From: Volvox africanus
Lineage: Eukaryota; Chlorophyta; Chlorophyceae; Chlamydomonadales; Volvocaceae
Length of the DNA stretch: 64,000 bases
Assembly: GCA_030268105.1 (NCBI GenBank)
Contig: BSDZ01000042.1
Location: 295,350 to 359,349, forward strand
Direction: 5' to 3'
Every line of letters starts with the position of its first letter. Within the stretch, counting starts at the first letter, position 1. Below, one piece after another: positions 13,689 to 64,000 of this stretch. The translations under genes were made by a program, and so were the position numbers. Under the pieces are notes generated by a model. That model searched no databases. It was not told the DNA's origin and was given only the letters and a program-made list of their open reading frames with translations.

Positions 13689-25891
<12,203 letters not shown>

Positions 25892-36186: not shown

Positions 36187-36549
36187 TTATTCGGCGTCGT
36201 GTGCCATAGGCCTTATCCCTATGCGTGGTTTCCTGTAGGCCTTATTGCTCGTGTCCCCTTCGGTTTCCTCAAAATGCTCATGTGGGTCAGCAAGCCCTCC
36301 CTGACGCTTCAGCGGCTCAAGTAGAGCTCCAAATCGCCCAGATCTTCGATCTGACCCAGAACGTGGGATGACATCATCATCATCATCATATCTGGGACCG
36401 TATCTTCCACCAAAGTAATGGCTTCCACCCTGCGAAACCAATGAACACACTGCCGGTGCTGGTCCAGTTGTGGTAAGGGCCATAAACAGCCATGCCAGGC
36501 GGCCCAAATGCCAGCGTGTCAAGGATGACAAATTACAATGCATACACAT
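36187..36549 (-). CDS. Hypothetical small protein, possibly secreted
   Basis: A 120-codon open frame from ATG at 36549 to TAA at 36187. I recognise no family. The N-terminus has a short hydrophobic segment (HLGRLAWLFMALTTT, about residues 14-28) followed by small residues, compatible with a signal peptide. The rest is polar, with GGSHYFGGRYGPRYDDDDD and a charged C-terminal half. A CGCAG just before the GGSHYFGG segment could instead be a splice acceptor, making the hydrophobic part intronic. An in-frame GTG upstream at 36615 is not needed. Confidence 0.35.
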   Translation of the reverse strand: MCMHCNLSSLTRWHLGRLAWLFMALTTTGPAPAVCSLVSQGGSHYFGGRYGPRYDDDDDVIPRSGSDRRSGRFGALLEPLKRQGGLADPHEHFEETEGDTSNKAYRKPRIGIRPMAHDAE

Positions 36550-38240: not shown

Positions 38241-38319
38241 GCTGAAAAGGAACCCAAATACACTCAAGCGATGCTTTCAAGCATTAACCCATAGCCGCAG
38301 CTTGTTCTCATCAATTCAG

Positions 38320-38662
38320 GTCAGGAGGTGAAAACATCGGCCACTACGGAAACGACCACCACGAACGCCACCGCCACCGCCGCCACCAACGCCACCAACG
38401 CCATAACCGCCATCACCGCTACCACCGCTACCGCCTTCACCACCGCCACCACGGCGACCGACGCCAAGACCGCCAACATCGCCTCCATCGCCGCCGTACC
38501 GCCATGTCCGCCCCCACAGCCATCATGGCCACCAACGCTGTAAGTATCCTGGGGTATCTACGGGTAGTGCTCATTATTGGACCTTATACTGACATTTTTC
38601 GATTTGGCCTTTGCAGGCGGACACAACAGAGATACACCAATGAAATGAAAACAGGTACGTAA
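38320..38662 (+). repeat. Diverged first unit of the array
   Basis: Its 5' half differs from all other units (Thr/Ala/Asn-rich codons such as TTETTTTNATATAATNATNA), while from CTACCGCCTTCACC onward it matches the array. It is preceded by two acceptor-like AGs (at 38319 and 38324) and no intron 3 homology, so it marks the array boundary and is the likely founder exon. Confidence 0.7.
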
Positions 38663-41600
38663 TAGTCCGGGATTTAGTCTCAATGGTGGCACCTGCATTT
38701 TGATACCTTGCTCAACTGAGGGATAACATTAGGGTTAAGTATCGGTGCCGTACCTACTTCCCTCCCGATCTCACTCCCTCCCTCCAGTGTGCCCTCCTTT
38801 TCCCCCTTCTCCCCCCCCCCCTCGTTGTCGGCGAGCTACACCAACGGAATTGAAACGGGTACGTCATTATACGGGATCGAGTCTGAATGGGAAAAATGGT
38901 ATGTAGATACCTTCGCGACTGCCATCATGACAGCCACATGCACCGTCACCACGGCCACATACACCGTCACCGCTACCGCCTTCACCACCGCCACCACGGC
39001 GACCGACGCCAAGACCGCCAACACCGCCTCCATCGCCGCCGTACCGCCATGTCCGCCCCCACAGCCATCATGGCCACCAACGCTGTAAGTATCCTGGGGT
39101 ATCTACGGGTAGTGCTCATTATTGGACCTTATACTGACATTTTTCGATTTGGCCTTTGCAGGCGGACACAACAGAGATACACCAATGAAATGAAAACAGG
39201 TACGTAATAGTCCGGGATTTAGTCTCAATGGTGGCACCTGCATTTTGATACCTTGCTCAACTGAGGGATAACATTAGGGTTAAGTATCGGTGCCGTACCT
39301 ACTTCCCTCCCGATCTCACTCCCTCCCTCCAGTGTGCCCTCCTTTTCCCCCTTCTCCCCCCCCCCTCGTTGTCGGCGAGCTACACCAACGGAATTGAAAC
39401 GGGTACGTCATTATACGGGATCGAGTCTGAATGGGAAAAATGGTATGTAGATACCTTCGCGACTGCCATCATGACAGCCACCATCGCCACCGCCCAATGT
39501 AGGTAGAAAGGGAGGGAGGGAGGGCGGGAGGGAGATTGGGTGGGCGGTCCGAAGGACGGAGGGAGGGAGGGAGAGAGGCCACCATTCCCACCATCGCCAC
39601 CGCCGCCACCACGGCCACATGCACCGTCACCGCTACCGCCTTCACCACCGCCACCACGGCGACCGACGCCAAGACCGCCAACACCGCCTCCATCGCCGCC
39701 GTACCGCCATGTCCGCCCCCACAGCCATCATGGCCACCAACGCTGTAAGTATCCTGGGGTATCTACGGGTAGTGCTCATTATTGGACCTTATACTGACAT
39801 TTTTCGATTTGGCCTTTGCAGGCGGACACAACAGAGATACACCAATGAAATGAAAACAGGTACGTAATAGTCCGGGATTTAGTCTCAATGGTGGCACCTG
39901 CATTTTGATACCTTGCTCAACTGAGGGATAACATAAGGGTTAAGTATCGGTGCCGTACCTACTTCCCTCCCGATCTCACTCCCTCCCTCCCGTGTGCCCT
40001 CTCTTTCTCCCTCTCCCACCCCCGTTGTCGGCGAGCTACGCCAACGGAATTGAAACGGGTACGTCATTATACGGGATCGAGTCTGAATGGGAAAAATGGT
40101 ATGTAGATACCTTCGCGACTGCCATCATGACAGCCACATGCACCGTCACCACGGCCACATACACCGTCACCGCTACCGCCTTCACCACCGCCACCACGGC
40201 GACCGACGCCAAGACCGCCAACACCGCCTCCATCGCCGCCGTACCGCCATGTCCGCCCCCACAGCCATCATGGCCACCAACGCTGTAAGTATCCTGGGGT
40301 ATCTACGGGTAGTGCTCATTATTGGACCTTATACTGACATTTTTCGATTTGGCCTTTGCAGGCGGACACAACAGAGATACACCAATGAAATGAAAACAGG
40401 TACGTAATAGTCCGGGATTTAGTCTCAATGGTGGCACCTGCATTTTGATACCTTGCTCAACTGAGGGATAACATTAGGGTTAAGTATCGGTGCCGTACCT
40501 ACTTCCCTCCCGATCTCACTCCCTCCCTCCAGTGTGCCCTCCTTTTCCCCCTTCTCCCCCCCCCCTCGTTGTCGGCGAGCTACACCAACGGAATTGAAAC
40601 GGGTACGTCATTATACGGGATCGAGTCTGAATGGGAAAAATGGTATGTAGATACCTTCGCGACTGCCATCATGACAGCCACCATCGCCACCGCCCAATGT
40701 AGGTAGAAAGGGAGGGAGGGAGGGCGGGAGGGAGATTGGGTGGGCGGTCCGAAGGACGGAGGGAGGGAGGGAGAGAGGCCACCATTCCCACCATCGCCAC
40801 CGCCGCCACCACGGCCACATGCACCGTCACCGCTACCGCCTTCACCACCGCCACCACGGCGACCGACGCCAAGACCGCCAACACCGCCTCCATCGCCGCC
40901 GTACCGCCATGTCCGCCCCCACAGCCATCATGGCCACCAACGCTGTAAGTATCCTGGGGTATCTACGGGTAGTGCTCATTATTGGACCTTATACTGACAT
41001 TTTTCGATTTGGCCTTTGCAGGCGGACACAACAGAGATACACCAATGAAATGAAAACAGGTACGTAATAGTCCAGGATTTAGTCTCAATGGTGGCACCTG
41101 CATTTTGATACCTTGCTCAACTGAGGGATAACATAAGGGTTAAGTATCGGTGCCGTACCTACTTCCCTCCCGATCTCACTCCCTCCCTCCCGTGTGCCCT
41201 CTCTTTCTCCCTCTCCCACCCCCGTTGTCGGCGAGCTACGCCAACGGAATTGAAACGGGTACGTCATTATACGGGATCGAGTCTGAATGGGAAAAATGGT
41301 ATGTAGATACCTTCGCGACTGCCATCATGACAGCCACATGCACCGTCACCACGGCCACATGCACCGTCACCGCTACCGCCTTCACCACCGCCACCACGGC
41401 GACCGACGCCAAGACCGCCAACACCGCCTCCATCGCCGCCGTACCGCCATGTCCGCCCCCACAGCCATCATGGCCACCAACGCTGTAAGTATCCTGGGGT
41501 ATCTACGGGTAGTGCTCATTATTGGACCTTATACTGACATTTTTCGATTTGGCCTTTGCAGGCGGACACAACAGAGATACACCAATGAAATGAAAACAGG

Positions 41601-44600
41601 TACGTAATAGTCCGGGATTTAGTCTCAATGGTGGCACCTGCATTTTGATACCTTGCTCAACTGAGGGATAACATTAGGGTTAAGTATCGGTGCCGTACCT
41701 ACTTCCCTCCCGATCTCACTCCCTCCCTCCAGTGTGCCCTCCTTTTCCCCCTTCTCCCCCCCCCTCGTTGTCGGCGAGCTACACCAACGGAATTGAAACG
41801 GGTACGTCATTATACGGGATCGAGTCTGAATGGGAAAAATGGTATGTAGATACCTTCGCGACTGCCATCATGACAGCCACCATCGCCACCGCCCAATGTA
41901 GGTAAAAAGGGAGGGAGGGAGGGCGGGAGGGAGGGCGGGAGGGAGATTGGGTGGGCGGTCCGAAGGACGGAGGGAGGGAGGGAGAGAGGCCACCATTCCC
42001 ACCATCGCCACCGCCGCCACCACGGCCACATACACCGTCACCGCTACCGCCTTCACCACCGCCACCACGGCGACCGACGCCAAGACCGCCAACACCGCCT
42101 CCATCGCCGCCGTACCGCCATGTCCGCCCCCACAGCCATCATGGCCACCAACGCTGTAAGTATCCTGGGGTATCTACGGGTAGTGCTCATTATTGGACCT
42201 TATACTGACATTTTTCGATTTGGCCTTTGCAGGCGGACACAACAGAGATACACCAATGAAATGAAAACAGGTACGTAATAGTCCGGGATTTAGTCTCAAT
42301 GGTGGCACCTGCATTTTGATACCTTGCTCAACTGAGGGATAACATTAGGGTTAAGTATCGGTGCCGTACCTACTTCCCTCCCGATCTCACTCCCTCCCTC
42401 CCGTGTGCCCTCTCTTTCTCCCTCTCCCACCCCCGTTGTCGGCGAGCTACGCCAACGGAATTGAAACGGGTACGTCATTATACGGGATCGAGTCTGAATG
42501 GGAAAAATGGTATGTAGATACCTTCGCGACTGCCATCATGACAGCCACATGCACCGTCACCACGGCCACATGCACCGTCACCGCTACCGCCTTCACCACC
42601 GCCACCACGGCGACCGACGCCAAGACCGCCAACATCGCCTCCATCGCCGCCGTACCGCCATGTCCGCCCCCACAGCCATCATGGCCACCAACGCTGTAAG
42701 TATCCTGGGGTATCTACGGGTAGTGCTCATTATTGGACCTTATACTGACATTTTTCGATTTGGCCTTTGCAGGCGGACACAACAGAGATACACCAATGAA
42801 ATGAAAACAGGTACGTAATAGTCCGGGATTTAGTCTCAATGGTGGCACCTGCATTTTGATACCTTGCTCAACTGAGGGATAACATTAGGGTTAAGTATCG
42901 GTGCCGTACCTACTTCCCTCCCGATCTCACTCCCTCCCTCCAGTGTGCCCTCCTTTTCCCCCTTCTCCCCCCCCCTCGTTGTCGGCGAGCTACACCAACG
43001 GAATTGAAACGGGTACGTCATTATACGGGATCGAGTCTGAATGGGAAAAGTGGTATGTAGATACCTTCGCGACTGCCATCATGACAGCCACCATCGCCAC
43101 CGCCCAATGTAGGTAGAAAGGGAGGGAGGGAGGGCGGGAGGGAGGGCGGGAGGGAGATTGGGTGGGCGGTCCGAAGGACGGAGGGAGGGAGGGAGAGAGG
43201 CCACCATTCCCACCATCGCCACCGCCGCCACCACGGCCACATACACCGTCACCGCTACCGCCTTCACCACCGCCACCACGGCGACCGACGCCAAGACCGC
43301 CAACACCGCCTCCATCGCCGCCGTACCGCCATGTCCGCCCCCACAGCCATCATGGCCACCAACGCTGTATGTATCCTGGGGTATCTACGGGTAGTGCTCA
43401 TTATTGGACCTTATACTGACATTTTTCGATTTGGCCTTTGCAGGCGGACACAACAGAGATACACCAATGAAATGAAAACAGGTACGTAATAGTCCGGGAT
43501 TTAGTCTCAATGGTGGCACCTGCATTTTGATACCTTGCTCAACTGAGGGATAACATTAGGGTTAAGTATCGGTGCCGTACCTACTTCCCTCCCGATCTCA
43601 CTCCCTCCCTCCCGTGTGCCCTCTCTTTCTCCCTCTCCCACCCCCGTTGTCGGCGAGCTACGCCAACGGAATTGAAACGGGTACGTCATTATACGGGATC
43701 GAGTCTGAATGGGAAAAATGGTATGTAGATACCTTCGCGACTGCCATCATGACAGCCACATGCACCGTCACCACGGCCACATGCACCGTCACCGCTACCG
43801 CCTTCACCACCGCCACCACGGCGACCGACGCCAAGACCGCCAACACCGCCTCCATCGCCGCCGTACCGCCATGTCCGCCCCCACAGCCATCATGGCCACC
43901 AACGCTGTAAGTATCCTGGGGTATCTACGGGTAGTGCTCATTATTGGACCTTATACTGACATTTTTCGATTTGGCCTTTGCAGGCGGACACAACAGAGAT
44001 ACACCAATGAAATGAAAACAGGTACGTAATAGTCCGGGATTTAGTCTCAATGGTGGCACCTGCATTTTGATACCTTGCTCAACTGAGGGATAACATTAGG
44101 GTTAAGTATCGGTGCCGTACCTACTTCCCTCCCGATCTCACTCCCTCCCTCCAGTGTGCCCTCCTTTTCCCCCTTCTCCCCCCCCCTCGTTGTCGGCGAG
44201 CTACACCAACGGAATTGAAACGGGTACGTCATTATACGGGATCGAGTCTGAATGGGAAAAATGGTATGTAGATACCTTCGCGACTGCCATCATGACAGCC
44301 ACCATCGCCACCGCCCAATGTAGGTAAAAAGGGAGGGAGGGAGGGCGGGAGGGAGGGCGGGAGGGAGATTGGGTGGGCGGTCCGAAGGACGGAGGGAGGG
44401 AGGGAGAGAGGCCACCATTCCCACCATCGCCACCGCCGCCACCACGGCCACATACACCGTCACCGCTACCGCCTTCACCACCGCCACCACGGCGACCGAC
44501 GCCAAGACCGCCAACACCGCCTCCATCGCCGCCGTACCGCCATGTCCGCCCCCACAGCCATCATGGCCACCAACGCTGTAAGTATCCTGGGGTATCTACG

Positions 44601-47600
44601 GGTAGTGCTCATTATTGGACCTTATACTGACATTTTTCGATTTGGCCTTTGCAGGCGGACACAACAGAGATACACCAATGAAATGAAAACAGGTACGTAA
44701 TAGTCCGGGATTTAGTCTCAATGGTGGCACCTGCATTTTGATACCTTGCTCAACTGAGGGATAACATTAGGGTTAAGTATCGGTGCCGTACCTACTTCCC
44801 TCCCGATCTCACTCCCTCCCTCCCGTGTGCCCTCTCTTTCTCCCTCTCCCACCCCCGTTGTCGGCGAGCTACGCCAACGGAATTGAAACGGGTACGTCAT
44901 TATACGGGATCGAGTCTGAATGGGAAAAATGGTATGTAGATACCTTCGCGACTGCCATCATGACAGCCACATGCACCGTCACCACGGCCACATGCACCGT
45001 CACCGCTACCGCCTTCACCACCGCCACCACGGCGACCGACGCCAAGACCGCCAACACCGCCTCCATCGCCGCCGTACCGCCATGTCCGCCCCCACAGCCA
45101 TCATGGCCACCAACGCTGTAAGTATCCTGGGGTATCTACGGGTAGTGCTCATTATTGGACCTTATACTGACATTTTTCGATTTGGCCTTTGCAGGCGGAC
45201 ACAACAGAGATACACCAATGAAATGAAAACAGGTACGTAATAGTCCGGGATTTAGTCTCAATGGTGGCACCTGCATTTTGATACCTTGCTCAACTGAGGG
45301 ATAACATTAGGGTTAAGTATCGGTGCCGTACCTACTTCCCTCCCGATCTCACTCCCTCCCTCCAGTGTGCCCTCCTTTTCCCCCTTCTCCCCCCCCCTCG
45401 TTGTCGGCGAGCTACACCAACGGAATTGAAACGGGTACGTCATTATACGGGATCGAGTCTGAATGGGAAAAATGGTATGTAGATACCTTCGCGACTGCCA
45501 TCATGACAGCCACATGCACCGTCACCACGGCCACATGCACCGTCACCGCTACCGCCTTCACCACCGCCACCACGGCGACCGACGCCAAGACCGCCAACAC
45601 CGCCTCCATCGCCGCCGTACCGCCATGTCCGCCCCCACAGCCATCATGGCCACCAACGCTGTAAGTATCCTGGGGTATCTACGGGTAGTGCTCATTATTG
45701 GACCTTATACTGACATTTTTCGATTTGGCCTTTGCAGGCGGACACAACAGAGATACACCAATGAAATGAAAACAGGTACGTAATAGTCCGGGATTTAGTC
45801 TCAATGGTGGCACCTGCATTTTGATACCTTGCTCAACTGAGGGATAACATTAGGGTTAAGTATCGGTGCCGTACCTACTTCCCTCCCGATCTCACTCCCT
45901 CCCTCCAGTGTGCCCTCCTTTTCCCCCTTCTCCCCCCCCCCTCGTTGTCGGCGAGCTACACCAACGGAATTGAAACGGGTACGTCATTATACGGGATCGA
46001 GTCTGAATGGGAAAAATGGTATGTAGATACCTTCGCGACTGCCATCATGACAGCCACCATCGCCACCGCCCAATGTAGGTAGAAAGGGAGGGAGGGAGGG
46101 CGGGAGGGAGGGCGGGAGGGAGATTGGGTGGGCGGTCCGAAGGACGGAGGGAGGGAGGGAGAGAGGCCACCATTCCCACCATCGCCACCGCCGCCACCAC
46201 GGCCACATACACCGTCACCGCTACCGCCTTCACCACCGCCACCACGGCGACCGACGCCAAGACCGCCAACACCGCCTCCATCGCCGCCGTACCGCCATGT
46301 CCGCCCCCACAGCCATCATGGCCACCAACGCTGTATGTATCCTGGGGTATCTACGGGTAGTGCTCATTATTGGACCTTATACTGACATTTTTCGATTTGG
46401 CCTTTGCAGGCGGACACAACAGAGATACACCAATGAAATGAAAACAGGTACGTAATAGTCCGGGATTTAGTCTCAATGGTGGCACCTGCATTTTGATACC
46501 TTGCTCAACTGAGGGATAACATTAGGGTTAAGTATCGGTGCCGTACCTACTTCCCTCCCGATCTCACTCCCTCCCTCCCGTGTGCCCTCTCTTTCTCCCT
46601 CTCCCACCCCCGTTGTCGGCGAGCTACGCCAACGGAATTGAAACGGGTACGTCATTATACGGGATCGAGTCTGAATGGGAAAAATGGTATGTAGATACCT
46701 TCGCGACTGCCATCATGACAGCCACATGCACCGTCACCACGGCCACATGCACCGTCACCGCTACCGCCTTCACCACCGCCACCACGGCGACCGACGCCAA
46801 GACCGCCAACATCGCCTCCATCGCCGCCGTACCGCCATGTCCGCCCCCACAGCCATCATGGCCACCAACGCTGTAAGTATCCTGGGGTATCTACGGGTAG
46901 TGCTCATTATTGGACCTTATACTGACATTTTTCGATTTGGCCTTTGCAGGCGGACACAACAGAGATACACCAATGAAATGAAAACAGGTACGTAATAGTC
47001 CGGGATTTAGTCTCAATGGTGGCACCTGCATTTTGATACCTTGCTCAACTGAGGGATAACATTAGGGTTAAGTATCGGTGCCGTACCTACTTCCCTCCCG
47101 ATCTCACTCCCTCCCTCCAGTGTGCCCTCCTTTTCCCCCTTCTCCCCCCCCCTCGTTGTCGGCGAGCTACACCAACGGAATTGAAACGGGTACGTCATTA
47201 TACGGGATCGAGTCTGAATGGGAAAAATGGTATGTAGATACCTTCGCGACTGCCATCATGACAGCCAAATGCACCGTCACCACGGCCACATGCACCGTCA
47301 CCGCTACCGCCTTCACCACCGCCACCACGGCGACCGACGCCAAGACCGCCAACATCGCCTCCATCGCCGCCGTACCGCCATGTCCGCCCCCACAGCCATC
47401 ATGGCCACCAACGCTGTAAGTATCCTGGGGTATCTACGGGTAGTGCTCATTATTGGACCTTATACTGACATTTTTCGATTTGGCCTTTGCAGGCGGACAC
47501 AACAGAGATACACCAATGAAATGAAAACAGGTACGTAATAGTCCGGGATTTAGTCTCAATGGTGGCACCTGCATTTTGATACCTTGCTCAACTGAGGGAT

Positions 47601-50600
47601 AACATTAGGGTTAAGTATCGGTGCCGTACCTACTTCCCTCCCGATCTCACTCCCTCCCTCCAGTGTGCCCTCCTTTTCCCCCTTCTCCCCCCCCCCTCGT
47701 TGTCGGCGAGCTACACCAACGGAATTGAAACGGGTACGTCATTATACGGGATCGAGTCTGAATGGGAAAAGTGGTATGTAGATACCTTCGCGACTGCCAT
47801 CATGACAGCCACCATCGCCACCGCCCAATGTAGGTAGAAAGGGAGGGAGGGAGGGCGGGAGGGAGGGCGGGAGGGAGATTGGGTGGGCGGTCCGAAGGAC
47901 GGAGGGAGGGAGGGAGAGAGGCCACCATTCCCACCATCGCCACCGCCGCCACCACGGCCACATACACCGTCACCGCTACCGCCTTCACCACCGCCACCAC
48001 GGCGACCGACGCCAAGACCGCCAACACCGCCTCCATCGCCGCCGTACCGCCATGTCCGCCCCCACAGCCATCATGGCCACCAACGCTGTAAGTATCCTGG
48101 GGTATCTACGGGTAGTGCTCATTATTGGACCTTATACTGACATTTTTCGATTTGGCCTTTGCAGGCGGACACAACAGAGATACACCAATGAAATGAAAAC
48201 AGGTACGTAATAGTCCGGGATTTAGTCTCAATGGTGGCACCTGCATTTTGATACCTTGCTCAACTGAGGGATAACATTAGGGTTAAGTATCGGTGCCGTA
48301 CCTACTTCCCTCCCGATCTCACTCCCTCCCTCCCGTGTGCCCTCTCTTTCTCCCTCTCCCACCCCCGTTGTCGGCGAGCTACGCCAACGGAATTGAAACG
48401 GGTACGTCATTATACGGGATCAAGTCTGAATGGGAAAAATGGTATGTAGATATCTTCGCGACTGCCATCATGACAGCCACATGCACCGTCACCACGGCCA
48501 CATGCACCGTCACCGCTACCGCCTTCACCACCGCCACCACGGCGACCGACGCCAAGACCGCCAACATCGCCTCCATCGCCGCCGTACCGCCATGTCCGCC
48601 CCCACAGCCATCATGGCCACCAACGCTGTAAGTATCCTGGGGTATCTACGGGTAGTGCTCATTATTGGACCTTATACTGACATTTTTCGATTTGGCCTTT
48701 GCAGGCGGACACAACAGAGATACACCAATGAAATGAAAACAGGTACGTAATAGTCCGGGATTTAGTCTCAATGGTGGCACCTGCATTTTGATACCTTGCT
48801 CAACTGAGGGATAACATTAGGGTTAAGTATCGGTGCCGTACCTACTTCCCTCCCGATCTCACTCCCTCCCTCCAGTGTGCCCTCCTTTTCCCCCTTCTCC
48901 CCCCCCCTCGTTGTCGGCGAGCTACACCAACGGAATTGAAACGGGTACGTCATTATACGGGATCGAGTCTGAATGGGAAAAATGGTATGTAGATACCTTC
49001 GCGACTGCCATCATGACAGCCACCATCGCCACCGCCCAATGTAGGTAAAAAGGGAGGGAGGGAGGGCGGGAGGGAGGGCGGGAGGGAGATTGGGTGGGCG
49101 GTCCGAAGGACGGAGGGAGGGAGGGAGAGAGGCCACCATTCCCACCATCGCCACCGCCGCCACCACGGCCACATACACCGTCACCGCTACCGCCTTCACC
49201 ACCGCCACCACGGCGACCGACGCCAAGACCGCCAACACCGCCTCCATCGCCGCCGTACCGCCATGTCCGCCCCCACAGCCATCATGGCCACCAACGCTGT
49301 AAGTATCCTGGGGTATCTACGGGTAGTGCTCATTATTGGACCTTATACTGACATTTTTCGATTTGGCCTTTGCAGGCGGACACAACAGAGATACACCAAT
49401 GAAATGAAAACAGGTACGTAATAGTCCGGGATTTAGTCTCAATGGTGGCACCTGCATTTTGATACCTTGCTCAACTGAGGGATAACATTAGGGTTAAGTA
49501 TCGGTGCCGTACCTACTTCCCTCCCGATCTCACTCCCTCCCTCCCGTGTGCCCTCTCTTTCTCCCTCTCCCACCCCCGTTGTCGGCGAGCTACGCCAACG
49601 GAATTGAAACGGGTACGTCATTATACGGGATCGAGTCTGAATGGGAAAAATGGTATGTAGATACCTTCGCGACTGCCATCATGACAGCCACATGCACCGT
49701 CACCACGGCCACATGCACCGTCACCGCTACCGCCTTCACCACCGCCACCACGGCGACCGACGCCAAGACCGCCAACACCGCCTCCATCGCCGCCGTACCG
49801 CCATGTCCGCCCCCACAGCCATCATGGCCACCAACGCTGTAAGTATCCTGGGGTATCTACGGGTAGTGCTCATTATTGGACCTTATACTGACATTTTTCG
49901 ATTTGGCCTTTGCAGGCGGACACAACAGAGATACACCAATGAAATGAAAACAGGTACGTAATAGTCCGGGATTTAGTCTCAATGGTGGCACCTGCATTTT
50001 GATACCTTGCTCAACTGAGGGATAACATTAGGGTTAAGTATCGGTGCCGTACCTACTTCCCTCCCGATCTCACTCCCTCCCTCCAGTGTGCCCTCCTTTT
50101 CCCCCTTCTCCCCCCCCCCTCGTTGTCGGCGAGCTACACCAACGGAATTGAAACGGGTACGTCATTATACGGGATCGAGTCTGAATGGGAAAAATGGTTT
50201 GTAGATACCTTCGCGACTGCCATCATGACAGCCACATGCACCGTCACCACGGCCACATGCACCGTCACCGCTACCGCCTTCACCACCGCCACCACGGCGA
50301 CCGACGCCAAGACCGCCAACATCGCCTCCATCGCCGCCGTACCGCCATGTCCGCCCCCACAGCCATCATGGCCACCAACGCTGTAAGTATCCTGGGGTAT
50401 CTACGGGTAGTGCTCATTATTGGACCTTATACTGACATTTTTCGATTTGGCCTTTGCAGGCGGACACAACAGAGATACACCAATGAAATGAAAACAGGTA
50501 CGTAATAGTCCGGGATTTAGTCTCAATGGTGGCACCTGCATTTTGATACCTTCCTCAACTGAGGGATAACATTAGGGTTAAGTATCGGTGCCGTACCTAC

Positions 50601-53600
50601 TTCCCTCCCGATCTCACTCCCTCCCTCCCGTGTGCCCTCTCTTTCTCCCTCTCCCACCCCCGTTGTCGGCGAGCTACGCCAACGGAATTGAAACGGGTAC
50701 GTCATTATACGGGATCAAGTCTGAATGGGAAAAATGGTATGTAGATATCTTCGCGACTGCCATCATGACAGCCACATGCACCGTCACCACGGCCACATGC
50801 ACCGTCACCGCTACCGCCTTCACCACCGCCACCACGGCGACCGACGCCAAGACCGCCAACATCGCCTCCATCGCCGCCGTACCGCCATGTCCGCCCCCAC
50901 AGCCATCATGGCCACCAACGCTGTAAGTATCCTGGGGTATCTACGGGTAGTGCTCATTATTGGACCTTATACTGACATTTTTCGATTTGGCCTTTGCAGG
51001 CCGACACAACAGAGATACACCAATGAAATGAAAACAGGTACGTAATAGTCCGGGATTTAGTCTCAATGGTGGCACCTGCATTTTGATACCTTGCTCAACT
51101 GAGGGATAACATTAGGGTTAAGTATCGGTGCCGTACCTACTTCCCTCCCGATCTCACTCCCTCCCTCCAGTGTGCCCTCCTTTTCCCCCTTCTCCCCCCC
51201 CCTCGTTGTCGGCGAGCTACACCAACGGAATTGAAACGGGTACGTCATTATACGGGATCGAGTCTGAATGGGAAAAATGGTATGTAGATACCTTCGCGAC
51301 TGCCATCATGACAGCCACCATCGCCACCGCCCAATGTAGGTAAAAAGGGAGGGAGGGAGGGCGGGAGGGAGGGCGGGAGGGAGATTGGGTGGGCGGTCCG
51401 AAGGACGGAGGGAGGGAGGGAGAGAGGCCACCATTCCCACCATCGCCACCGCCGCCACCACGGCCACATACACCGTCACCGCTACCGCCTTCACCACCGC
51501 CACCACGGCGACCGACGCCAAGACCGCCAACACCGCCTCCATCGCCGCCGTACCGCCATGTCCGCCCCCACAGCCATCATGGCCACCAACGCTGTAAGTA
51601 TCCTGGGGTATCTACGGGTAGTGCTCATTATTGGACCTTATACTGACATTTTTCGATTTGGCCTTTGCAGGCGGACACAACAGAGATACACCAATGAAAT
51701 GAAAACAGGTACGTAATAGTCCGGGATTTAGTCTCAATGGTGGCACCTGCATTTTGATACCTTGCTCAACTGAGGGATAACATTAGGGTTAAGTATCGGT
51801 GCCGTACCTACTTCCCTCCCGATCTCACTCCCTCCCTCCCGTGTGCCCTCTCTTTCTCCCTCTCCCACCCCCGTTGTCGGCGAGCTACGCCAACGGAATT
51901 GAAACGGGTACGTCATTATACGGGATCGAGTCTGAATGGGAAAAATGGTATGTAGATACCTTCGCGACTGCCATCATGACAGCCACATGCACCGTCACCA
52001 CGGCCACATGCACCGTCACCGCTACCGCCTTCACCACCGCCACCACGGCGACCGACGCCAAGACCGCCAACACCGCCTCCATCGCCGCCGTACCGCCATG
52101 TCCGCCCCCACAGCCATCATGGCCACCAACGCTGTAAGTATCCTGGGGTATCTACGGGTAGTGCTCATTATTGGACCTTATACTGACATTTTTCGATTTG
52201 GCCTTTGCAGGCGGACACAACAGAGATACACCAATGAAATGAAAACAGGTACGTAATAGTCCGGGATTTAGTCTCAATGGTGGCACCTGCATTTTGATAC
52301 CTTGCTCAACTGAGGGATAACATTAGGGTTAAGTATCGGTGCCGTACCTACTTCCCTCCCGATCTCACTCCCTCCCTCCAGTGTGCCCTCCTTTTCCCCC
52401 TTCTCCCCCCCCCCTCGTTGTCGGCGAGCTACACCAACGGAATTGAAACGGGTACGTCATTATACGGGATCGAGTCTGAATGGGAAAAATGGTTTGTAGA
52501 TACCTTCGCGACTGCCATCATGACAGCCACATGCACCGTCACCACGGCCACATGCACCGTCACCGCTACCGCCTTCACCACCGCCACCACGGCGACCGAC
52601 GCCAAGACCGCCAACATCGCCTCCATCGCCGCCGTACCGCCATGTCCGCCCCCACAGCCATCATGGCCACCAACGCTGTAAGTATCCTGGGGTATCTACG
52701 GGTAGTGCTCATTATTGGACCTTATACTGACATTTTTCGATTTGGCCTTTGCAGGCGGACACAACAGAGATACACCAATGAAATGAAAACAGGTACGTAA
52801 TAGTCCGGGATTTAGTCTCAATGGTGGCACCTGCATTTTGATACCTTCCTCAACTGAGGGATAACATTAGGGTTAAGTATCGGTGCCGTACCTACTTCCC
52901 TCCCGATCTCACTCCCTCCCTCCAGTGTGCCCTCCTTTTCCCCCTTCTCCCCCCCCCCTCGTTGTCGGCGAGCTACACCAACGGAATTGAAACGGGTACG
53001 TCATTATACGGGATCGAGTCTGAATGGGAAAAATGGTATGTAGATACCTTCGCGACTGCCATCATGACAGCCACCATCGCCACCGCCCAATGTAGGTAGA
53101 AAGGGCGGGAGGGAGGGCGGGAGGTAGATTGGGTGGGCGGTCCGAAGGACGGAGGGAGGGAGGGAGAGAGGCCACCATTCCCACCATCGCCACCGCCGCC
53201 ACCACGGCCACATGCACCGTCACCGCTACCGCCTTCACCACCGCCACCACGGCGACCGACGCCAAGACCGCCAACACCGCCTCCATCGCCGCCGTACCGC
53301 CATGTCCGCCCCCACAGCCATCATGGCCACCAACGCTGTAAGTATCCTGGGGTATCTACGGGTAGTGCTCATTATTGGACCTTATACTGACATTTTTCGA
53401 TTTGGCCTTTGCAGGCGGACACAACAGAGATACACCAATGAAATGAAAACAGGTACGTAATAGTCCGGGATTTAGTCTCAATGGTGGCACCTGCATTTTG
53501 ATACCTTGCTCAACTGAGGGATAACATTAGGGTTAAGTATCGGTGCCGTACCTACTTCCCTCCCGATCTCACTCCCTCCCTCCAGTGTGCCCTCCTTTTC

Positions 53601-56600
53601 CCCCTTCTCCCCCCCCCCTCGTTGTCGGCGAGCTACACCAACGGAATTGAAACGGGTACGTCATTATACGGGATCGAGTCTGAATGGGAAAAATGGTATG
53701 TAGATACCTTCGCGACTGCCATCATGACAGCCACCATCGCCACCGCCCAATGTAGGTAGAAAGGGAGGGAGGGAGGGCGGGAGGGAGATTGGGTGGGCGG
53801 TCCGAAGGAGGGAGGGAAGGAGGGAGAGAGGCCACCATTCCCACCATCGCCACCGCCGCCACCACGGCCACATGCACCGTCACCGCTACCGCCTTCACCA
53901 CCGCCACCACGGCGACCGACGCCAAGACCGCCAACACCGCCTCCATCGCCGCCGTACCGCCATGTCCGCCCCCACAGCCATCATGGCCACCAACGCTGTA
54001 AGTATCCTGGGGTATCTACGGGTAGTGCTCATTATTGGACCTTATACTGACATTTTTCGATTTGGCCTTTGCAGGCGGACACAACAGAGATACACCAATG
54101 AAATGAAAACAGGTACGTAATAGTCCGGGATTTAGTCTCAATGGTGGCACCTGCATTTTGATACCTTGCTCAACTGAGGGATAACATTAGGGTTAAGTAT
54201 CGGTGCCGTACCTACTTCCCTCCCGATCTCACTCCCTCCCTCCAGTGTGCCCTCCTTTTCCCCCTTCTCCCCCCCCCCTCGTTGTCGGCGAGCTACACCA
54301 ACGGAATTGAAACGGGTACGTCATTATACGGGATCGAGTCTGAATGGGAAAAATGGTATGTAGATACCTTCGCGACTGCCATCATGACAGCCACCATCGC
54401 CACCGCCCAATGTAGGTAGAAAGGGCGGGAGGGAGGGCGGGAGGGAGATTGGGTGGGCGGTCCGAAGGACGGAGGGAGGGAGGGAGAGAGGCCACCATTC
54501 CCACCATCGCCACCGCCGCCACCACGGTTACATGCACCGTCACCGCTACCGCCTTCACCACCGCCACCACGGCGACCGACGCCAAGACCGCCAACACCGC
54601 CTCCATCGCCGCCGTACCGCCATGTCCGCCCCCACAGCCATCATGGCCACCAACGCTGTAAGTATCCTGGGGTATCTACGGGTAGTGCTCATTATTGGAC
54701 CTTATACTGACATTTTTCGATTTGGCCTTTGCAGGCGGACACAACAGAGATACACCAATGAAATGAAAACAGGTACGTAATAGTCCGGGATTTAGTCTCA
54801 ATGGTGGCACCTGCATTTTGATACCTTGCTCAACTGAGGGATAACATTAGGGTTAAGTATCGGTGCCGTACCTACTTCCCTCCCGATCTCACTCCCTCCC
54901 TCCAGTGTGCCCTCCTTTTCCCCCTTCTCCCCCCCCCCTCGTTGTCGGCGAGCTACACCAACGGAATTGAAACGGGTACGTCATTATACGGGATCGAGTC
55001 TGAATGGGAAAAATGGTATGTAGATACCTTCGCGACTGCCATCATGACAGCCACCATCGCCACCGCCCAATGTAGGTAGAAAGGGCGGGAGGGAGGGCGG
55101 GAGGGAGATTGGGTGGGCGGTCCGAAGGAGGGAGGGAAGGAGGGAGAGAGGCCACCATTCCCACCATCGCCACCGCCGCCACCACGGCCACATGCACCGT
55201 CACCGCTACCGCCTTCACCACCGCCACCACGGCGACCGACGCCAAGACCGCCAACACCGCCTCCATCGCCGCCGTACCGCCATGTCCGCCCCCACAGCCA
55301 TCATGGCCACCAACGCTGTAAGTATCCTGGGGTATCTACGGGTAGTGCTCATTATTGGACCTTATACTGACATTTTTCGATTTGGCCTTTGCAGGCGGAC
55401 ACAACAGAGATACACCAATGAAATGAAAACAGGTACGTAATAGTCCGGGATTTAGTCTCAATGGTGGCACCTGCATTTTGATACCTTGCTCAACTGAGGG
55501 ATAACATTAGGGTTAAGTATCGGTGCCGTACCTACTTCCCTCCCGATCTCACTCCCTCCCTCCAGTGTGCCCTCCTTTTCCCCCTTCTCCCCCCCCCCTC
55601 GTTGTCGGCGAGCTACACCAACGGAATTGAAACGGGTACGTCATTATACGGGATCGAGTCTGAATGGGAAAAATGGTTTGTAGATACCTTCGCGACTGCC
55701 ATCATGACAGCCACATGCACCGTCACCACGGCCACATGCACCGTCACCGCTACCGCCTTCACCACCGCCACCACGGCGACCGACGCCAAGACCGCCAACA
55801 TCGCCTCCATCGCCGCCGTACCGCCATGTCCGCCCCCACAGCCATCATGGCCACCAACGCTGTAAGTATCCTGGGGTATCTACGGGTAGTGCTCATTATT
55901 GGACCTTATACTGACATTTTTCGATTTGGCCTTTGCAGGCGGACACAACAGAGATACACCAATGAAATGAAAACAGGTACGTAATAGTCCGGGATTTAGT
56001 CTCAATGGTGGCACCTGCATTTTGATACCTTCCTCAACTGAGGGATAACATTAGGGTTAAGTATCGGTGCCGTACCTACTTCCCTCCCGATCTCACTCCC
56101 TCCCTCCAGTGTGCCCTCCTTTTCCCCCTTCTCCCCCCCCCCTCGTTGTCGGCGAGCTACACCAACGGAATTGAAACGGGTACGTCATTATACGGGATCG
56201 AGTCTGAATGGGAAAAATGGTATGTAGATACCTTCGCGACTGCCATCATGACAGCCACCATCGCCACCGCCCAATGTAGGTAGAAAGGGCGGGAGGGAGG
56301 GCGGGAGGGAGATTGGGTGGGCGGTCCGAAGGACGGAGGGAGGGAGGGAGAGAGGCCACCATTCCCACCATCGCCACCGCCGCCACCACGGCCACATGCA
56401 CCGTCACCGCTACCGCCTTCACCACCGCCACCACGGCGACCGACGCCAAGACCGCCAACACCGCCTCCATCGCCGCCGTACCGCCATGTCCGCCCCCACA
56501 GCCATCATGGCCACCAACGCTGTAAGTATCCTGGGGTATCTACGGGTAGTGCTCATTATTGGACCTTATACTGACATTTTTCGATTTGGCCTTTGCAGGC

Positions 56601-59600
56601 GGACACAACAGAGATACACCAATGAAATGAAAACAGGTACGTAATAGTCCGGGATTTAGTCTCAATGGTGGCACCTGCATTTTGATACCTTGCTCAACTG
56701 AGGGATAACATTAGGGTTAAGTATCGGTGCCGTACCTACTTCCCTCCCGATCTCACTCCCTCCCTCCAGTGTGCCCTCCTTTTCCCCCTTCTCCCCCCCC
56801 CTCGTTGTCGGCGAGCTACACCAACGGAATTGAAACGGGTACGTCATTATACGGGATCGAGTCTGAATGGGAAAAATGGTATGTAGATACCTTCGCGACT
56901 GCCATCATGACAGCCACCATCGCCACCGCCCAATGTAGGTAGAAAGGGCGGGAGGGAGGGCGGGAGGGAGATTGGGTGGGCGGTCCGAAGGAGGGAGGGA
57001 AGGAGGGAGAGAGGCCACCATTCCCACCATCGCCACCGCCGCCACCACGGCCACATGCACCGTCACCGCTACCGCCTTCACCACCGCCACCACGGCGACC
57101 GACGCCAAGACCGCCAACACCGCCTCCATCGCCGCCGTACCGCCATGTCCGCCCCCACAGCCATCATGGCCACCAACGCTGTAAGTATCCTGGGGTATCT
57201 ACGGGTAGTGCTCATTATTGGACCTTATACTGACATTTTTCGATTTGGCCTTTGCAGGCGGACACAACAGAGATACACCAATGAAATGAAAACAGGTACG
57301 TAATAGTCCGGGATTTAGTCTCAATGGTGGCACCTGCATTTTGATACCTTGCTCAACTGAGGGATAACATTAGGGTTAAGTATCGGTGCCGTACCTACTT
57401 CCCTCCCGATCTCACTCCCTCCCTCCAGTGTGCCCTCCTTTTCCCCCTTCTCCCCCCCCCTCGTTGTCGGCGAGCTACGCCAACGGAATTGAAACGGGTA
57501 CGTCATTATACGGGATCGAGTCTGAATGGGAAAAATTGGTATGTAGATACCTTCGCGACTGCCATCATGACAGCCACATGCACCGTCACCACGGCCACAT
57601 GCACCGTCACCGCTACCGCCTTCACCACCGCCACCACGGCGACCGACGCCAAGACCGCCAACATCGCCTCCATCGCCGCCGTACCGCCATGTCCGCCCCC
57701 ACAGCCATCATGGCCACCAACGCTGTAAGTATCCTGGGGTATCTACGGGTAGTGCTCATTATTGGACCTTATACTGACATTTTTCGATTTGGCCTTTGCA
57801 GGCGGACACAACAGAGATACACCAATGAAATGAAAACAGGTACGTAATAGTCCGGGATTTAGTCTCAATGGTGGCACCTGCATTTTGATACCTTGCTCAA
57901 CTGAGGGATAACATTAGGGTTAAGTATCGGTGCCGTACCTACTTCCCTCCCGATCTCACTCCCTCCCTCCAGTGTGCCCTCCTTTTCCCCCTTCTCCCCC
58001 CCCCCTCGTTGTCGGCGAGCTACACCAACGGAATTGAAACGGGTACGTCATTATACGGGATCGAGTCTGAATGGGAAAAATGGTTTGTAGATACCTTCGC
58101 GACTGCCATCATGACAGCCACATGCACCGTCACCACGGCCACATGCACCGTCACCGCTACCGCCTTCACCACCGCCACCACGGCGACCGACGCCAAGACC
58201 GCCAACATCGCCTCCATCGCCGCCGTACCGCCATGTCCGCCCCCACAGCCATCATGGCCACCAACGCTGTAAGTATCCTGGGGTATCTACGGGTAGTGCT
58301 CATTATTGGACCTTATACTGACATTTTTCGATTTGGCCTTTGCAGGCGGACACAACAGAGATACACCAATGAAATGAAAACAGGTACGTAATAGTCCGGG
58401 ATTTAGTCTCAATGGTGGCACCTGCATTTTGATACCTTCCTCAACTGAGGGATAACATTAGGGTTAAGTATCGGTGCCGTACCTACTTCCCTCCCGATCT
58501 CACTCCCTCCCTCCAGTGTGCCCTCCTTTTCCCCCTTCTCCCCCCCCCCTCGTTGTCGGCGAGCTACACCAACGGAATTGAAACGGGTACGTCATTATAC
58601 GGGATCGAGTCTGAATGGGAAAAATGGTATGTAGATACCTTCGCGACTGCCATCATGACAGCCACCATCGCCACCGCCCAATGTAGGTAGAAAGGGCGGG
58701 AGGGAGGGCGGGAGGGAGATTGGGTGGGCGGTCCGAAGGACGGAGGGAGGGAGGGAGAGAGGCCACCATTCCCACCATCGCCACCGCCGCCACCACGGCC
58801 ACATGCACCGTCACCGCTACCGCCTTCACCACCGCCACCACGGCGACCGACGCCAAGACCGCCAACACCGCCTCCATCGCCGCCGTACCGCCATGTCCGC
58901 CCCCACAGCCATCATGGCCACCAACGCTGTAAGTATCCTGGGGTATCTACGGGTAGTGCTCATTATTGGACCTTATACTGACATTTTTCGATTTGGCCTT
59001 TGCAGGCGGACACAACAGAGATACACCAATGAAATGAAAACAGGTACGTAATAGTCCGGGATTTAGTCTCAATGGTGGCACCTGCATTTTGATACCTTCC
59101 TCAACTGAGGGATAACATTAGGGTTAAGTATCGGTGCCGTACCTACTTCCCTCCCGATCTCACTCCCTCCCTCCAGTGTGCCCTCCTTTTCCCCCTTCTC
59201 CCCCCCCCCTCGTTGTCGGCGAGCTACACCAACGGAATTGAAACGGGTACGTCATTATACGGGATCGAGTCTGAATGGGAAAAATGGTATGTAGATACCT
59301 TCGCGACTGCCATCATGACAGCCACCATCGCCACCGCCCAATGTAGGTAGAAAGGGCGGGAGGGAGGGCGGGAGGGAGATTGGGTGGGCGGTCCGAAGGA
59401 CGGAGGGAGGGAGGGAGAGAGGCCACCATTCCCACCATCGCCACCGCCGCCACCACGGCCACATGCACCGTCACCGCTACCGCCTTCACCACCGCCACCA
59501 CGGCGACCGACGCCAAGACCGCCAACACCGCCTCCATCGCCGCCGTACCGCCATGTCCGCCCCCACAGCCATCATGGCCACCAACGCTGTAAGTATCCTG

Positions 59601-62600
59601 GGGTATCTACGGGTAGTGCTCATTATTGGACCTTATACTGACATTTTTCGATTTGGCCTTTGCAGGCGGACACAACAGAGATACACCAATGAAATGAAAA
59701 CAGGTACGTAATAGTCCGGGATTTAGTCTCAATGGTGGCACCTGCATTTTGATACCTTCCTCAACTGAGGGATAACATTAGGGTTAAGTATCGGTGCCGT
59801 ACCTACTTCCCTCCCGATCTCACTCCCTCCCTCCAGTGTGCCCTCCTTTTCCCCCTTCTCCCCCCCCCCTCGTTGTCGGCGAGCTACACCAACGGAATTG
59901 AAACGGGTACGTCATTATACGGGATCGAGTCTGAATGGGAAAAATGGTATGTAGATACCTTCGCGACTGCCATCATGACAGCCACCATCGCCACCGCCCA
60001 ATGTAGGTAGAAAGGGCGGGAGGGAGGGCGGGAGGGAGATTGGGTGGGCGGTCCGAAGGACGGAGGGAGGGAGGGAGAGAGGCCACCATTCCCACCATCG
60101 CCACCGCCGCCACCACGGCCACATGCACCGTCACCGCTACCGCCTTCACCACCGCCACCACGGCGACCGACGCCAAGACCGCCAACACCGCCTCCATCGC
60201 CGCCGTACCGCCATGTCCGCCCCCACAGCCATCATGGCCACCAACGCTGTAAGTATCCTGGGGTATCTACGGGTAGTGCTCATTATTGGACCTTATACTG
60301 ACATTTTTCGATTTGGCCTTTGCAGGCGGACACAACAGAGATACACCAATGAAATGAAAACAGGTACGTAATAGTCCGGGATTTAGTCTCAATGGTGGCA
60401 CCTGCATTTTGATACCTTGCTCAACTGAGGGATAACATTAGGGTTAAGTATCGGTGCCGTACCTACTTCCCTCCCGATCTCACTCCCTCCCTCCAGTGTG
60501 CCCTCCTTTTCCCCCTTCTCCCCCCCCCCTCGTTGTCGGCGAGCTACACCAACGGAATTGAAACGGGTACGTCATTATACGGGATCGAGTCTGAATGGGA
60601 AAAATGGTATGTAGATACCTTCGCGACTGCCATCATGACAGCCACCATCGCCACCGCCCAATGTAGGTAGAAAGGGCGGGAGGGAGGGCGGGAGGGAGAT
60701 TGGGTGGGCGGTCCGAAGGAGGGAGGGAAGGAGGGAGAGAGGCCACCATTCCCACCATCGCCACCGCCGCCACCACGGCCACATGCACCGTCACCGCTAC
60801 CGCCTTCACCACCGCCACCACGGCGACCGACGCCAAGACCGCCAACACCGCCTCCATCGCCGCCGTACCGCCATGTCCGCCCCCACAGCCATCATGGCCA
60901 CCAACGCTGTAAGTATCCTGGGGTATCTACGGGTAGTGCTCATTATTGGACCTTATACTGACATTTTTCGATTTGGCCTTTGCAGGCGGACACAACAGAG
61001 ATACACCAATGAAATGAAAACAGGTACGTAATAGTCCGGGATTTAGTCTCAATGGTGGCACCTGCATTTTGATACCTTGCTCAACTGAGGGATAACATTA
61101 GGGTTAAGTATCGGTGCCGTACCTACTTCCCTCCCGATCTCACTCCCTCCCTCCAGTGTGCCCTCCTTTTCCCCCTTCTCCCCCCCCCTCGTTGTCGGCG
61201 AGCTACGCCAACGGAATTGAAACGGGTACGTCATTATACGGGATCGAGTCTGAATGGGAAAAATTGGTATGTAGATACCTTCGCGACTGCCATCATGACA
61301 GCCACATGCACCGTCACCACGGCCACATGCACCGTCACCGCTACCGCCTTCACCACCGCCACCACGGCGACCGACGCCAAGACCGCCAACATCGCCTCCA
61401 TCGCCGCCGTACCGCCATGTCCGCCCCCACAGCCATCATGGCCACCAACGCTGTAAGTATCCTGGGGTATCTACGGGTAGTGCTCATTATTGGACCTTAT
61501 ACTGACATTTTTCGATTTGGCCTTTGCAGGCGGACACAACAGAGATACACCAATGAAATGAAAACAGGTACGTAATAGTCCGGGATTTAGTCTCAATGGT
61601 GGCACCTGCATTTTGATACCTTGCTCAACTGAGGGATAACATTAGGGTTAAGTATCGGTGCCGTACCTACTTCCCTCCCGATCTCACTCCCTCCCTCCAG
61701 TGTGCCCTCCTTTTCCCCCTTCTCCCCCCCCCTCGTTGTCGGCGAGCTACACCAACGGAATTGAAACGGGTACGTCATTATACGGGATCGAGTCTGAATG
61801 GGAAAAATGGTATGTAGATACCTTCGCGACTGCCATCATGACAGCCACATGCACCGTCACCACGGCCACATGCACCGTCACCGCTACCGCCTTCACCACC
61901 GCCACCACGGCGACCGACGCCAAGACCGCCAACATCGCCTCCATCGCCGCCGTACCGCCATGTCCGCCCCCACAGCCATCATGGCCACCAACGCTGTAAG
62001 TATCCTGGGGTATCTACGGGTAGTGCTCATTATTGGACCTTATACTGACATTTTTCGATTTGGCCTTTGCAGGCGGACACAACAGAGATACACCAATGAA
62101 ATGAAAACAGGTACGTAATAGTCCGGGATTTAGTCTCAATGGTGGCACCTGCATTTTGATACCTTGCTCAACTGAGGGATAACATTAGGGTTAAGTATCG
62201 GTGCCGTACCTACTTCCCTCCCGATCTCACTCCCTCCCTCCAGTGTGCCCTCCTTTTCCCCCTTCTCCCCCCCCCCTCGTTGTCGGCGAGCTACACCAAC
62301 GGAATTGAAACGGGTACGTCATTATACGGGATCGAGTCTGAATGGGAAAAATGGTATGTAGATACCTTCGCGACTGCCATCATGACAGCCACCATCGCCA
62401 CCGCCCAATGTAGGTAGAAAGGGAGGGAGGGAGGGCGGGAGGGAGATTGGGTGGGCGGTCCGAAGGAGGGAGGGAAGGAGGGAGAGAGGCCACCATTCCC
62501 ACCATCGCCACCGCCGCCACCACGGCCACATGCACCGTCACCGCTACCGCCTTCACCACCGCCACCACGGCGACCGACGCCAAGACCGCCAACACCGCCT

Positions 62601-63987
62601 CCATCGCCGCCGTACCGCCATGTCCGCCCCCACAGCCATCATGGCCACCAACGCTGTAAGTATCCTGGGGTATCTACGGGTAGTGCTCATTATTGGACCT
62701 TATACTGACATTTTTCGATTTGGCCTTTGCAGGCGGACACAACAGAGATACACCAATGAAATGAAAACAGGTACGTAATAGTCCGGGATTTAGTCTCAAT
62801 GGTGGCACCTGCATTTTGATACCTTGCTCAACTGAGGGATAACATTAGGGTTAAGTATCGGTGCCGTACCTACTTCCCTCCCGATCTCACTCCCTCCCTC
62901 CAGTGTGCCCTCCTTTTCCCCCTTCTCCCCCCCCCCTCGTTGTCGGCGAGCTACACCAACGGAATTGAAACGGGTACGTCATTATACGGGATCGAGTCTG
63001 AATGGGAAAAATGGTATGTAGATACCTTCGCGACTGCCATCATGACAGCCACCATCGCCACCGCCCAATGTAGGTAAAAAGGGAGGGAGGGAGGGCGGGA
63101 GGGAGATTGGGTGGGCGGTCCGAAGGACGGAGGGAGGGAGGGAGAGAGGCCACCATTCCCACCATCGCCACCGCCGCCACCACGGCCACATGCACCGTCA
63201 CCGCTACCGCCTTCACCACCGCCACCACGGCGACCGACGCCAAGACCGCCAACACCGCCTCCATCGCCGCCGTACCGCCATGTCCGCCCCCACAGCCATC
63301 ATGGCCACCAACGCTGTAAGTATCCTGGGGTATCTACGGGTAGTGCTCATTATTGGACCTTATACTGACATTTTTCGATTTGGCCTTTGCAGGCGGACAC
63401 AACAGAGATACACCAATGAAATGAAAACAGGTACGTAATAGTCCGGGATTTAGTCTCAATGGTGGCACCTGCATTTTGATACCTTGCTCAACTGAGGGAT
63501 AACATTAGGGTTAAGTATCGGTGCCGTACCTACTTCCCTCCCGATCTCACTCCCTCCCTCCAGTGTGCCCTCCTTTTCCCCCTTCTCCCCCCCCCTCGTT
63601 GTCGGCGAGCTACACCAACGGAATTGAAACGGGTACGTCATTATACGGGATCGAGTCTGAATGGGAAAAATGGTATGTAGATACCTTCGCGACTGCCATC
63701 ATGACAGCCACCATCGCCACCGCCCAATGTAGGTAGAAAGGGAGGGAGGGAGGGGCGGGAGGGAGGGCGGGAGGGAGATTGGGTGGGCGGTCCGAAGGAC
63801 GGAGGGAGGGAGGGAGAGAGGCCACCATTCCCACCATCGCCACCGCCGCCACCACGGCCACATACACCGTCACCGCTACCGCCTTCACCACCGCCACCAC
63901 GGCGACCGACGCCAAGACCGCCAACATCGCCTCCATCGCCGCCGTACCGCCATGTCCGCCCCCACAGCCATCATGGCCACCAACGCT
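38320..63987 (+). CDS. Putative giant exon-amplified gene for a Thr/Ala/Pro-rich repeat protein (both ends open)
   Basis: Each array unit offers exon A (151 nt in the simple form), intron 1 (77 bp, GTAAGT...TACTGAC...TTTGCAG), exon B (38 nt), intron 2 (133 bp, GTACGT...CCCTCCAG), exon C (69 nt with nine C) and intron 3 (75 bp, GTACGT...ATGACAG). First set: A 38320-38539, B 38617-38654, C 38788-38858, next A 38934-39084. Intron phases are 2, 1, 1, so A+B+C gives 86 codons and the frame stays open. The peptide is Thr/Ala-rich (TVTATAFTTATTATDAKTAN), then VPPCPPPQPSWPPTL, RTQQRYTNEMKT and VCPPFPPSPPP. The composition recalls hydroxyproline-rich cell-wall or matrix glycoproteins (inference). About 43 A, 42 B and 42 C exons are in view. 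No start, signal peptide or end is certain. A non-coding satellite containing a gene fragment remains possible. Confidence 0.45.
38540..38616 (+). other. Representative array intron 1 (77 bp)
   Basis: Donor GTAAGT, branch-point-like TACTGAC 26 bp before the 3' end, T-rich tract and TTTGCAG acceptor. The exon frame meets TAA at the second base of the donor, so the segment cannot be translated through in that frame. Two units (43368 and 46334) have GTATGT donors instead. Confidence 0.6.
38663..39207 (+). repeat. Example unit, simple type with intact acceptor (543-545 bp)
   Basis: This type has CTCCCTCCAG before exon C and no G-rich insert. Ten such units end at 39207, 45783, 47538, 50505, 52800, 55984, 57847, 58391, 61575 and 62118. 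Length differences come from 9, 10 or 11 C in exon C, or from a 1-bp insertion in intron 3. Confidence 0.85.
39208..39867 (+). repeat. Example unit, G-rich-insert type (659-672 bp)
   Basis: Exon A is interrupted after CCACCATCGCCACCGCCCAATGT by AGGTAGAAAGGGAGGG... through GGGAGAGAGGCCACC, adding about 117-129 bp. In the exon frame this brings a TAG, so the insert must be spliced out or bypassed for translation. Splicing intron 3 from the exon C donor to the AG before AGGCCACC keeps the frame. 671/672-bp versions have one extra 12-bp GGGAGGGAGGGC step. Confidence 0.85.
39868..40407 (+). repeat. Example unit, acceptor-less type (540 bp)
   Basis: CTCCCTCCAG is CTCCCTCCCG here, and the following tract is CCCTCTCTTTCTCCCTCTCCC rather than the poly-C version, with GCC instead of ACC in the next exon block. 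Ten units share this exact form (ends 40407, 41607, 42818, 44029, 45240, 46995, 48750, 49961, 51045, 52256). The reading frame across the altered site remains open. Confidence 0.85.
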
Positions 63988-64000
63988 GTAAGTATCCTGG

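Follow-up and report, generated by a model that had tools for sequence, protein, structure and literature searches.

A probable nested macrosatellite of exon-intron origin beside a leucine-rich-looking gene family in Volvox africanus

The 64,000-nucleotide (nt) stretch of the Volvox africanus genome analyzed here (hereafter the window; contig C41, GenBank BSDZ01000042.1) closes with a tandem array, termed ABC, whose unit consists of three exon-like segments (A, B and C) separated by intron-like sequence. Elsewhere in the same genome, ABC units are followed by a second tandem repeat, D, which in turn leads into an exon of a downstream gene (the gene exon). Judged from its sequence, the ABC array is probably part of a nested, higher-order macrosatellite that occupies several loci and originated from exon-intron DNA lying before a gene family of leucine-rich appearance. 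As to the kind of entity, we class it as a gene-derived macrosatellite; the array is real and its origin unusual. The initial annotation of this DNA had suggested that the unit might be the building block of a giant protein, which is not supported by our results, and the neighboring D array is a better lead than ABC. The genome of the sequenced strain, 1101-NZ-11, is given as 141.0 Mbp in the genome report (PMC10291315). It contains 160 pherophorin-domain matches, with none of 14 control genomes matched, in agreement with a volvocine alga. No paper describing the ABC or D arrays was found in the literature that was searched.

Structure and origin of the ABC array

The tandem array of more than 25 kb that had been proposed is real and extends to the last base of the window (Table 1). 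It contains 43 copies of exon A, 42 of exon B and 42 of the exon C tail, in good agreement with the earlier estimate of about 127 exon pieces. Unit lengths in the window fall into two classes (540-545 bases (b) and about 656-672 b) which, by length, alternate as dimers and trimers, and this alternation of unit types gives the array the higher-order organization known from satellite DNA. Long head-to-tail arrays of near-identical units were also observed at several loci and in variable number, exon B being present in 1, 1, 11, 12, 19 and at least 42 copies per locus. Genome-wide, 346 matches to exon B could be identified (two mismatches or fewer), and the reversed control pattern gave none. The idea that length varies by unequal crossing-over was a sound one in that copy number differs between loci, as unequal exchange predicts. 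Judging by the higher-order pattern and the range of copy numbers, the arrays most likely expanded within a segmental duplication of many copies, through unequal exchange or gene conversion.

The 77-b intron between A and B is well formed and, at the sequence level, has convincing splice signals. A strict intron rule, which was written after inspecting this intron, recognized one intron in the unit plus 120 b, and at least one in 37 of 2000 dinucleotide shuffles. GT-AG segments with a near-perfect branch point had been reported for the unit as a whole; the A/B intron, one of the three proposed, indeed has good signals, but the exon C acceptor is AG in 61 and CG in 15 of the 76 units in which C could be delimited. 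The description of the unit as a spliceable exon-intron module is upheld as far as its derivation is concerned, because an origin from exon-intron DNA is supported, and the splice signals were most likely inherited from a transcribed source.

Exon C is composed of pieces of other segments. D units measure 163-166 b, with 69 nt for the exon and 94-97 b for the GT-AG intron, and a decayed intron of this type, with altered ends, supplies most of exon C as well as the end of the B/C intron. Exon C thereby consists of a pyrimidine tract of ~40 nt from another intron and the tail of a duplicated exon B: its last 23 nt, taken with the first part of intron 3, represent a diverged second copy of the B end and of the adjoining first part of intron 2. 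Alignment of these two composite stretches scored 85, compared with a mean of 28.3 (standard deviation 4.8, maximum 46) for 1000 shuffles. Exon C is absent from a second, diverged array family (described below) because B there runs directly into the homologue of intron 3. Considered as a coding exon, C was rejected on account of its length of 66-73 nt, the missing AG and its make-up as a recombination junction. In the simplest history, an ancestral module of A, intron, B and intron would have received a piece of a D-type intron and the B tail by recombination before it was amplified.

Table 1. Positions of the features discussed (window numbering unless a contig or locus is given)
Feature	Position	Strand	Remarks
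Studied stretch (window)	C41, 295350-359349		3' edge is the last base of C41 (359,349 b)
Flank repeat	29496-38319	.	~9 kb before the array; 99.7-99.8% copies, three on C32 and one on C15
ABC tandem array	38320-64000	+	Continues past the end of contig C41
Intron 1 (A/B), first copy	38540-38616	+	77 b, GTAAGT ... TACTGAC ... TTTGCAG
Exon B, first copy	38617-38654	+	38 nt
Decayed D-type intron within ABC unit	38735-38828	+	92 of 96 aligned positions identical to D intron
Tail of duplicated exon B	38836-38858	+	Only part of exon C that is not intron or junction sequence
Intron 3 (C/A)	38859-38933	+	75 b; 57 of 75 identical to the intron directly after B in the second family
Exon A, short type	38934-39084	+	151 nt
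G-rich insertion of long-type A, first copy	39499-39577	+	Brings a stop into the Thr/Ala frame
Protein-kinase C-terminal half	L020 (C32:895001-905000), 7118-7708		Immediately precedes a single ABC unit; Pkinase E 1.7e-09

Reading frames of the ABC units and the second array family

In all, 80 complete units were measured (41 on C41, 28 on C32 and 11 on C15). Exon A was 151 nt long in 48 of them, 267 nt in 25 and 279 nt in 7, and 78 units gave a 38-nt match to exon B. The lengths of the 76 delimitable C exons were 69 nt (29 units), 70 nt (26), 66 nt (14), 72 nt (three), 71 nt (two), 68 nt and 73 nt (one each). The initial annotation had assumed a uniform, open 86-codon unit of 151, 38 and 69 nt; given this variation in A and C, such a unit is not general, and the full A-B-C model (in frame, stop-free and with a C acceptor) fits four of the 41 window units and 20 of the 80 overall. 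Among the 37 window units that fail, 10 have no C acceptor, 10 are out of frame, 15 contain stops and two lack a motif. Because the model fits so few units, the continuous translation of more than 3,500 residues that had been envisaged is not obtained from the sequence under this model. When C is skipped, 74 A+B pairs can be assessed (six further units were without a motif); 43 of them have an open, in-frame reading, and the other 31 contain a stop and have a length that is not a multiple of three. The testable units of the window comprise 19 short and 20 long ones and, going by unit length, no more than three short units follow one another. Thus, the reading frame would end within a few units, and the ABC array does not behave as an array of amplified coding exons, most of which should be open, in frame and spliceable.

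Two other ways of reading the unit were considered and rejected. A Pro-rich frame of A, which resembles pherophorin by eye, is interrupted by a stop in the second family, and reading from A-B into D or the gene fails since the phases, worked out by hand, do not fit.

The second family is an array with a period of 1,344 b, found on C57 as well as on C51, C53 and C56 (40 of 1015 candidates scored), which holds diverged A, intron 1, B and D-like pieces. A module of A, a 77-b intron, B and an intron of ~75 b is common to both families. With one copy compared per family, the divergence was about 8 to 26%, depending on the segment: 28 of 167 positions differed in A, 10 of 38 in B, 45 of 534 in the flank and, with one gap in addition, 8 of 76 in intron 1. 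For A and B together, nonsynonymous (dN) and synonymous (dS) divergence were 0.208 and 0.230 (ratio 0.90); 10 of the changes fall on the first, 15 on the second and 13 on the third codon position. Exon A alone had a dN/dS of 0.89 in the frame assumed earlier and of 0.71 and 0.79 in the other two. Since the ratio for A+B is 0.90 and changes are spread over the codon positions, there is no sign of protein constraint in the point changes. The diversity within arrays was 0.022 for A and 0.045 for C, vs 0.0019 to 0.0064 for introns; A and C therefore exceed the introns, B equals intron 1 and no purifying selection on the ABC frame could be detected by either measure. On these grounds, with exon C a by-product of a recombination junction, the frame broken in most units and dN/dS close to 0.9, the proposed giant Thr/Ala/Pro-rich wall or matrix protein is not supported.

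D arrays and the downstream gene

D arrays were read at four loci: those on C32 hold 3, 7 and 38 copies, and the one on C15 holds 82. Upstream of them lie ABC units with 1, 11, 19 and 12 copies of exon B, respectively, and all four lead into the gene exon. The start of D had 1,068 exact matches in the genome (none for the reversed control pattern), and 18 junctions between D and the gene were present. In 124 D units selected by a near-intact donor, the exon was 69 nt long in 121, the donor was GTAAGT in 121 and TGTTAG was present in 123. Exon D is phase-symmetric, would encode a hydrophobic 23-residue repeat and has a phase that fits the gene exon. Its diversity was 0.0160, vs 0.0087 for the D intron (0.0076 without the C-run; 126 units).

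A protein search with the gene exon revealed three V. africanus proteins annotated as partial, VaNZ11_012076, VaNZ11_010803 and VaNZ11_012015 (on C76, C41 and C75, respectively). On C75, splicing of the last D exon to the exon after it gives a translation that matches the database protein P0003 exactly; the unspliced translation does not contain this protein. Because the 5' end of P0003 falls in the intron preceding that D, the match concerns only the last unit. According to the genome report, gene models were predicted from stranded mRNA-seq with HISAT, StringTie and TransDecoder (PMC10291315; the read set named there is DRA015422), and database proteins such as P0003 probably derive from this pipeline. 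It appears that the gene can take up the last D unit by splicing to its next exon, with which this one protein model agrees. Inner units are probably unused, and the ABC array would be untranslated, being either intergenic or part of the leader or an intron of longer transcripts.

The product of the downstream gene looks leucine-rich by eye. The best match of P0002 to a Pfam leucine-rich repeat (E 0.069, 13.2 bits) did not reach the cut-off of 27, and the first exon of the gene alone had no Pfam match. It should be noted that one copy of the gene exon (L028, C15:39001-43500; at ~42 kb) is only 88% identical, with many small differences, beside clean copies; it looks like unpolished sequence and was excluded from use.

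An alternative explanation is that D, and not ABC, is the true exon array, many D exons being spliced serially into the gene to give a hydrophobic 23-residue repeat of variable number. The constant exon length and splice motifs (in units picked by their donor), the phase of D and the agreement of P0003 with splicing of the last D to the gene all speak for it. However, in the arrays of 3, 7, 38 and 82 copies, the runs of strictly spliceable 69-nt D exons that reach the gene comprise 3, 7, 13 and 4 units, respectively, for which reason the D array as a single long reading frame was rejected; the 13-exon run stops at a GTTAGT donor, which still has GT, and the 4-exon run at a lost donor. Furthermore, nine of the 11 variable sites in the 121 exons of 69 nt alter the amino acid, P0003 begins before the last D within an intron, and no D exon is present within the ~290 nt that were read upstream of a gene-exon copy at C41:289-290 kb, whereas the array copies have one ~90 nt away. 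No database protein with six D repeats and the gene (~173-551 amino acids (aa)) was found among the 7,997 candidates sharing most words, to which scoring was confined. Likewise, no match was found for an ABC protein (query, the three frames of exon A; ~108-345 aa; 4,174 candidates). Both negative results are weak, because reads from identical repeats map poorly. We consider serial splicing of D unlikely, and similarly improbable is its extended form, in which the repeat number would vary by copy via unequal exchange and ABC would supply spliced leader exons.

Several observations weigh against the reading of these arrays as a macrosatellite. The length of D is kept at 69 nt in 121 of 124 units, and variable sites are no denser in D exons (0.159) than in D introns (0.200, or 0.155 without the C-run). 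Between the families, each represented by a single copy, neither A (167 nt) nor B (38 nt) has gained or lost nucleotides, and neither copy has a stop in the Thr/Ala frame. Exon B is as invariant as intron 1 (diversity 0.0020 vs 0.0019). Finally, in the long type of A, five internal GT-AG excisions or six later acceptors would restore the frame, and the sequence before the acceptors is purine-rich.

Flanking repeat, locus order and relation to known systems

The ~9-kb flank repeat that precedes the array in the window lies immediately before ABC at four sites, namely in the window, at two sites on C32 and at one on C15; it is also present ~3 kb downstream of all four gene copies. At the C15 site, only one ABC unit follows the flank, and no D was found over the following 27 kb. 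One more C32 copy of the flank stops at the contig end. The complete order of flank, ABC, D and gene was observed in two cases, both on C32. The first D/ABC array of C32 adjoins a protein-kinase-like remnant upstream (Table 1), and the sequence upstream of the C15 D-array locus resembles positions 25,823-29,372 of the window. Contigs C15, C32 and C6 start within D arrays and C41 finishes within ABC; arrays coincide with contig ends in the V. africanus genome.

Open reading frames (ORFs) on the minus strand of the flank (window 33676-34407) are leucine-rich by eye (LNLSFNRLASLPPAL, SSVPAEVLKLDGLVVFNASGN), and only one of the minus-strand ORFs of the flank gives an LRR_1 match, which is weak (E 0.2, below the cut-off). 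A short ORF at 37774-37890, beginning with MSTPESSDESPRM, is also present in the flank copies on C57 and C23, with a different end in each. Farther upstream, several long simple-repeat tracts are present (19432-19724, 21058-21355, 22504-23009 and 24743-24806), namely two (TGTGTA) arrays of ~49 copies each, a perfect (AAAT) tract of 126.5 copies and a perfect (AT) tract of 32. The window had no Rfam match at the gathering score.

It might also be supposed that the flank and the arrays belong to a mobile element that carries tandem repeats inside it. In the Pacific oyster, Helentron elements are reported to carry satellite-like arrays (PMC7492417), and the likeness lies in tandem arrays that are associated with dispersed sequence. 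In V. africanus, many contigs hold sequence that matches the last 631 b of the flank at 83-97% (61 matches; 40 of the 61 candidates scored), and one such recurrence, on C57 (L038), runs into the diverged 1,344-b array. On the other hand, many copies are in tandem: flank-like sequence forms a repeat with a 6,958-b period on C57, C51 and C53, contigs that also bear 1,344-b arrays, and segmental duplication is therefore indicated. Unlike Helentrons, the Volvox macro-units are themselves in tandem and no mobile-element proteins are shown in the window, where no Pfam family was found in the eight larger ORFs tested of 13 with at least 200 aa. A Helentron-like element thus seems quite unlikely. The remaining possibility, a very long gene whose A, B and C exons are spliced and translated into a wall or matrix protein of variable length, has in its favor the A/B intron signals, the A and B lengths kept between families and the open short A+B pairs, but is very improbable in view of the broken pairs, the short/long alternation, the properties of exon C, the A+B dN/dS and the lack, weak as evidence, of a database protein.

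The preferred reading, a gene-derived macrosatellite, has partial parallels in human systems. NBPF units are coding exons. NBPF/Olduvai triplets are reported to be gene-derived repeat units amplified as higher-order groups (PMC9584774). The likeness is the higher-order array structure of gene-derived units; the difference is that NBPF repeats are reported there within genes, whereas the ABC unit has no conserved reading frame. The D4Z4/DUX4 array is also variable, and transcripts of its most distal unit are reported to be spliced onto the adjacent flank (PMC8350899). This resembles the last D unit, which is apparently spliced to the flanking gene exon. However, the D4Z4 unit holds a protein gene, whereas the units of ABC and D are small exon-intron modules, apparently with no product of their own.

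Satellites are usually regarded as DNA without gene structure. In this multicellular green alga, more than 1,000 copies of a small exon-intron unit, with splice sites that look intact, form arrays next to genes. At one locus, an annotated protein has the sequence expected if the unit at the array edge is spliced into the gene. These results raise the questions of whether exon-derived satellites feed exons into genes and of how the splicing machinery deals with as many as 80 successive copies of identical splice sites.

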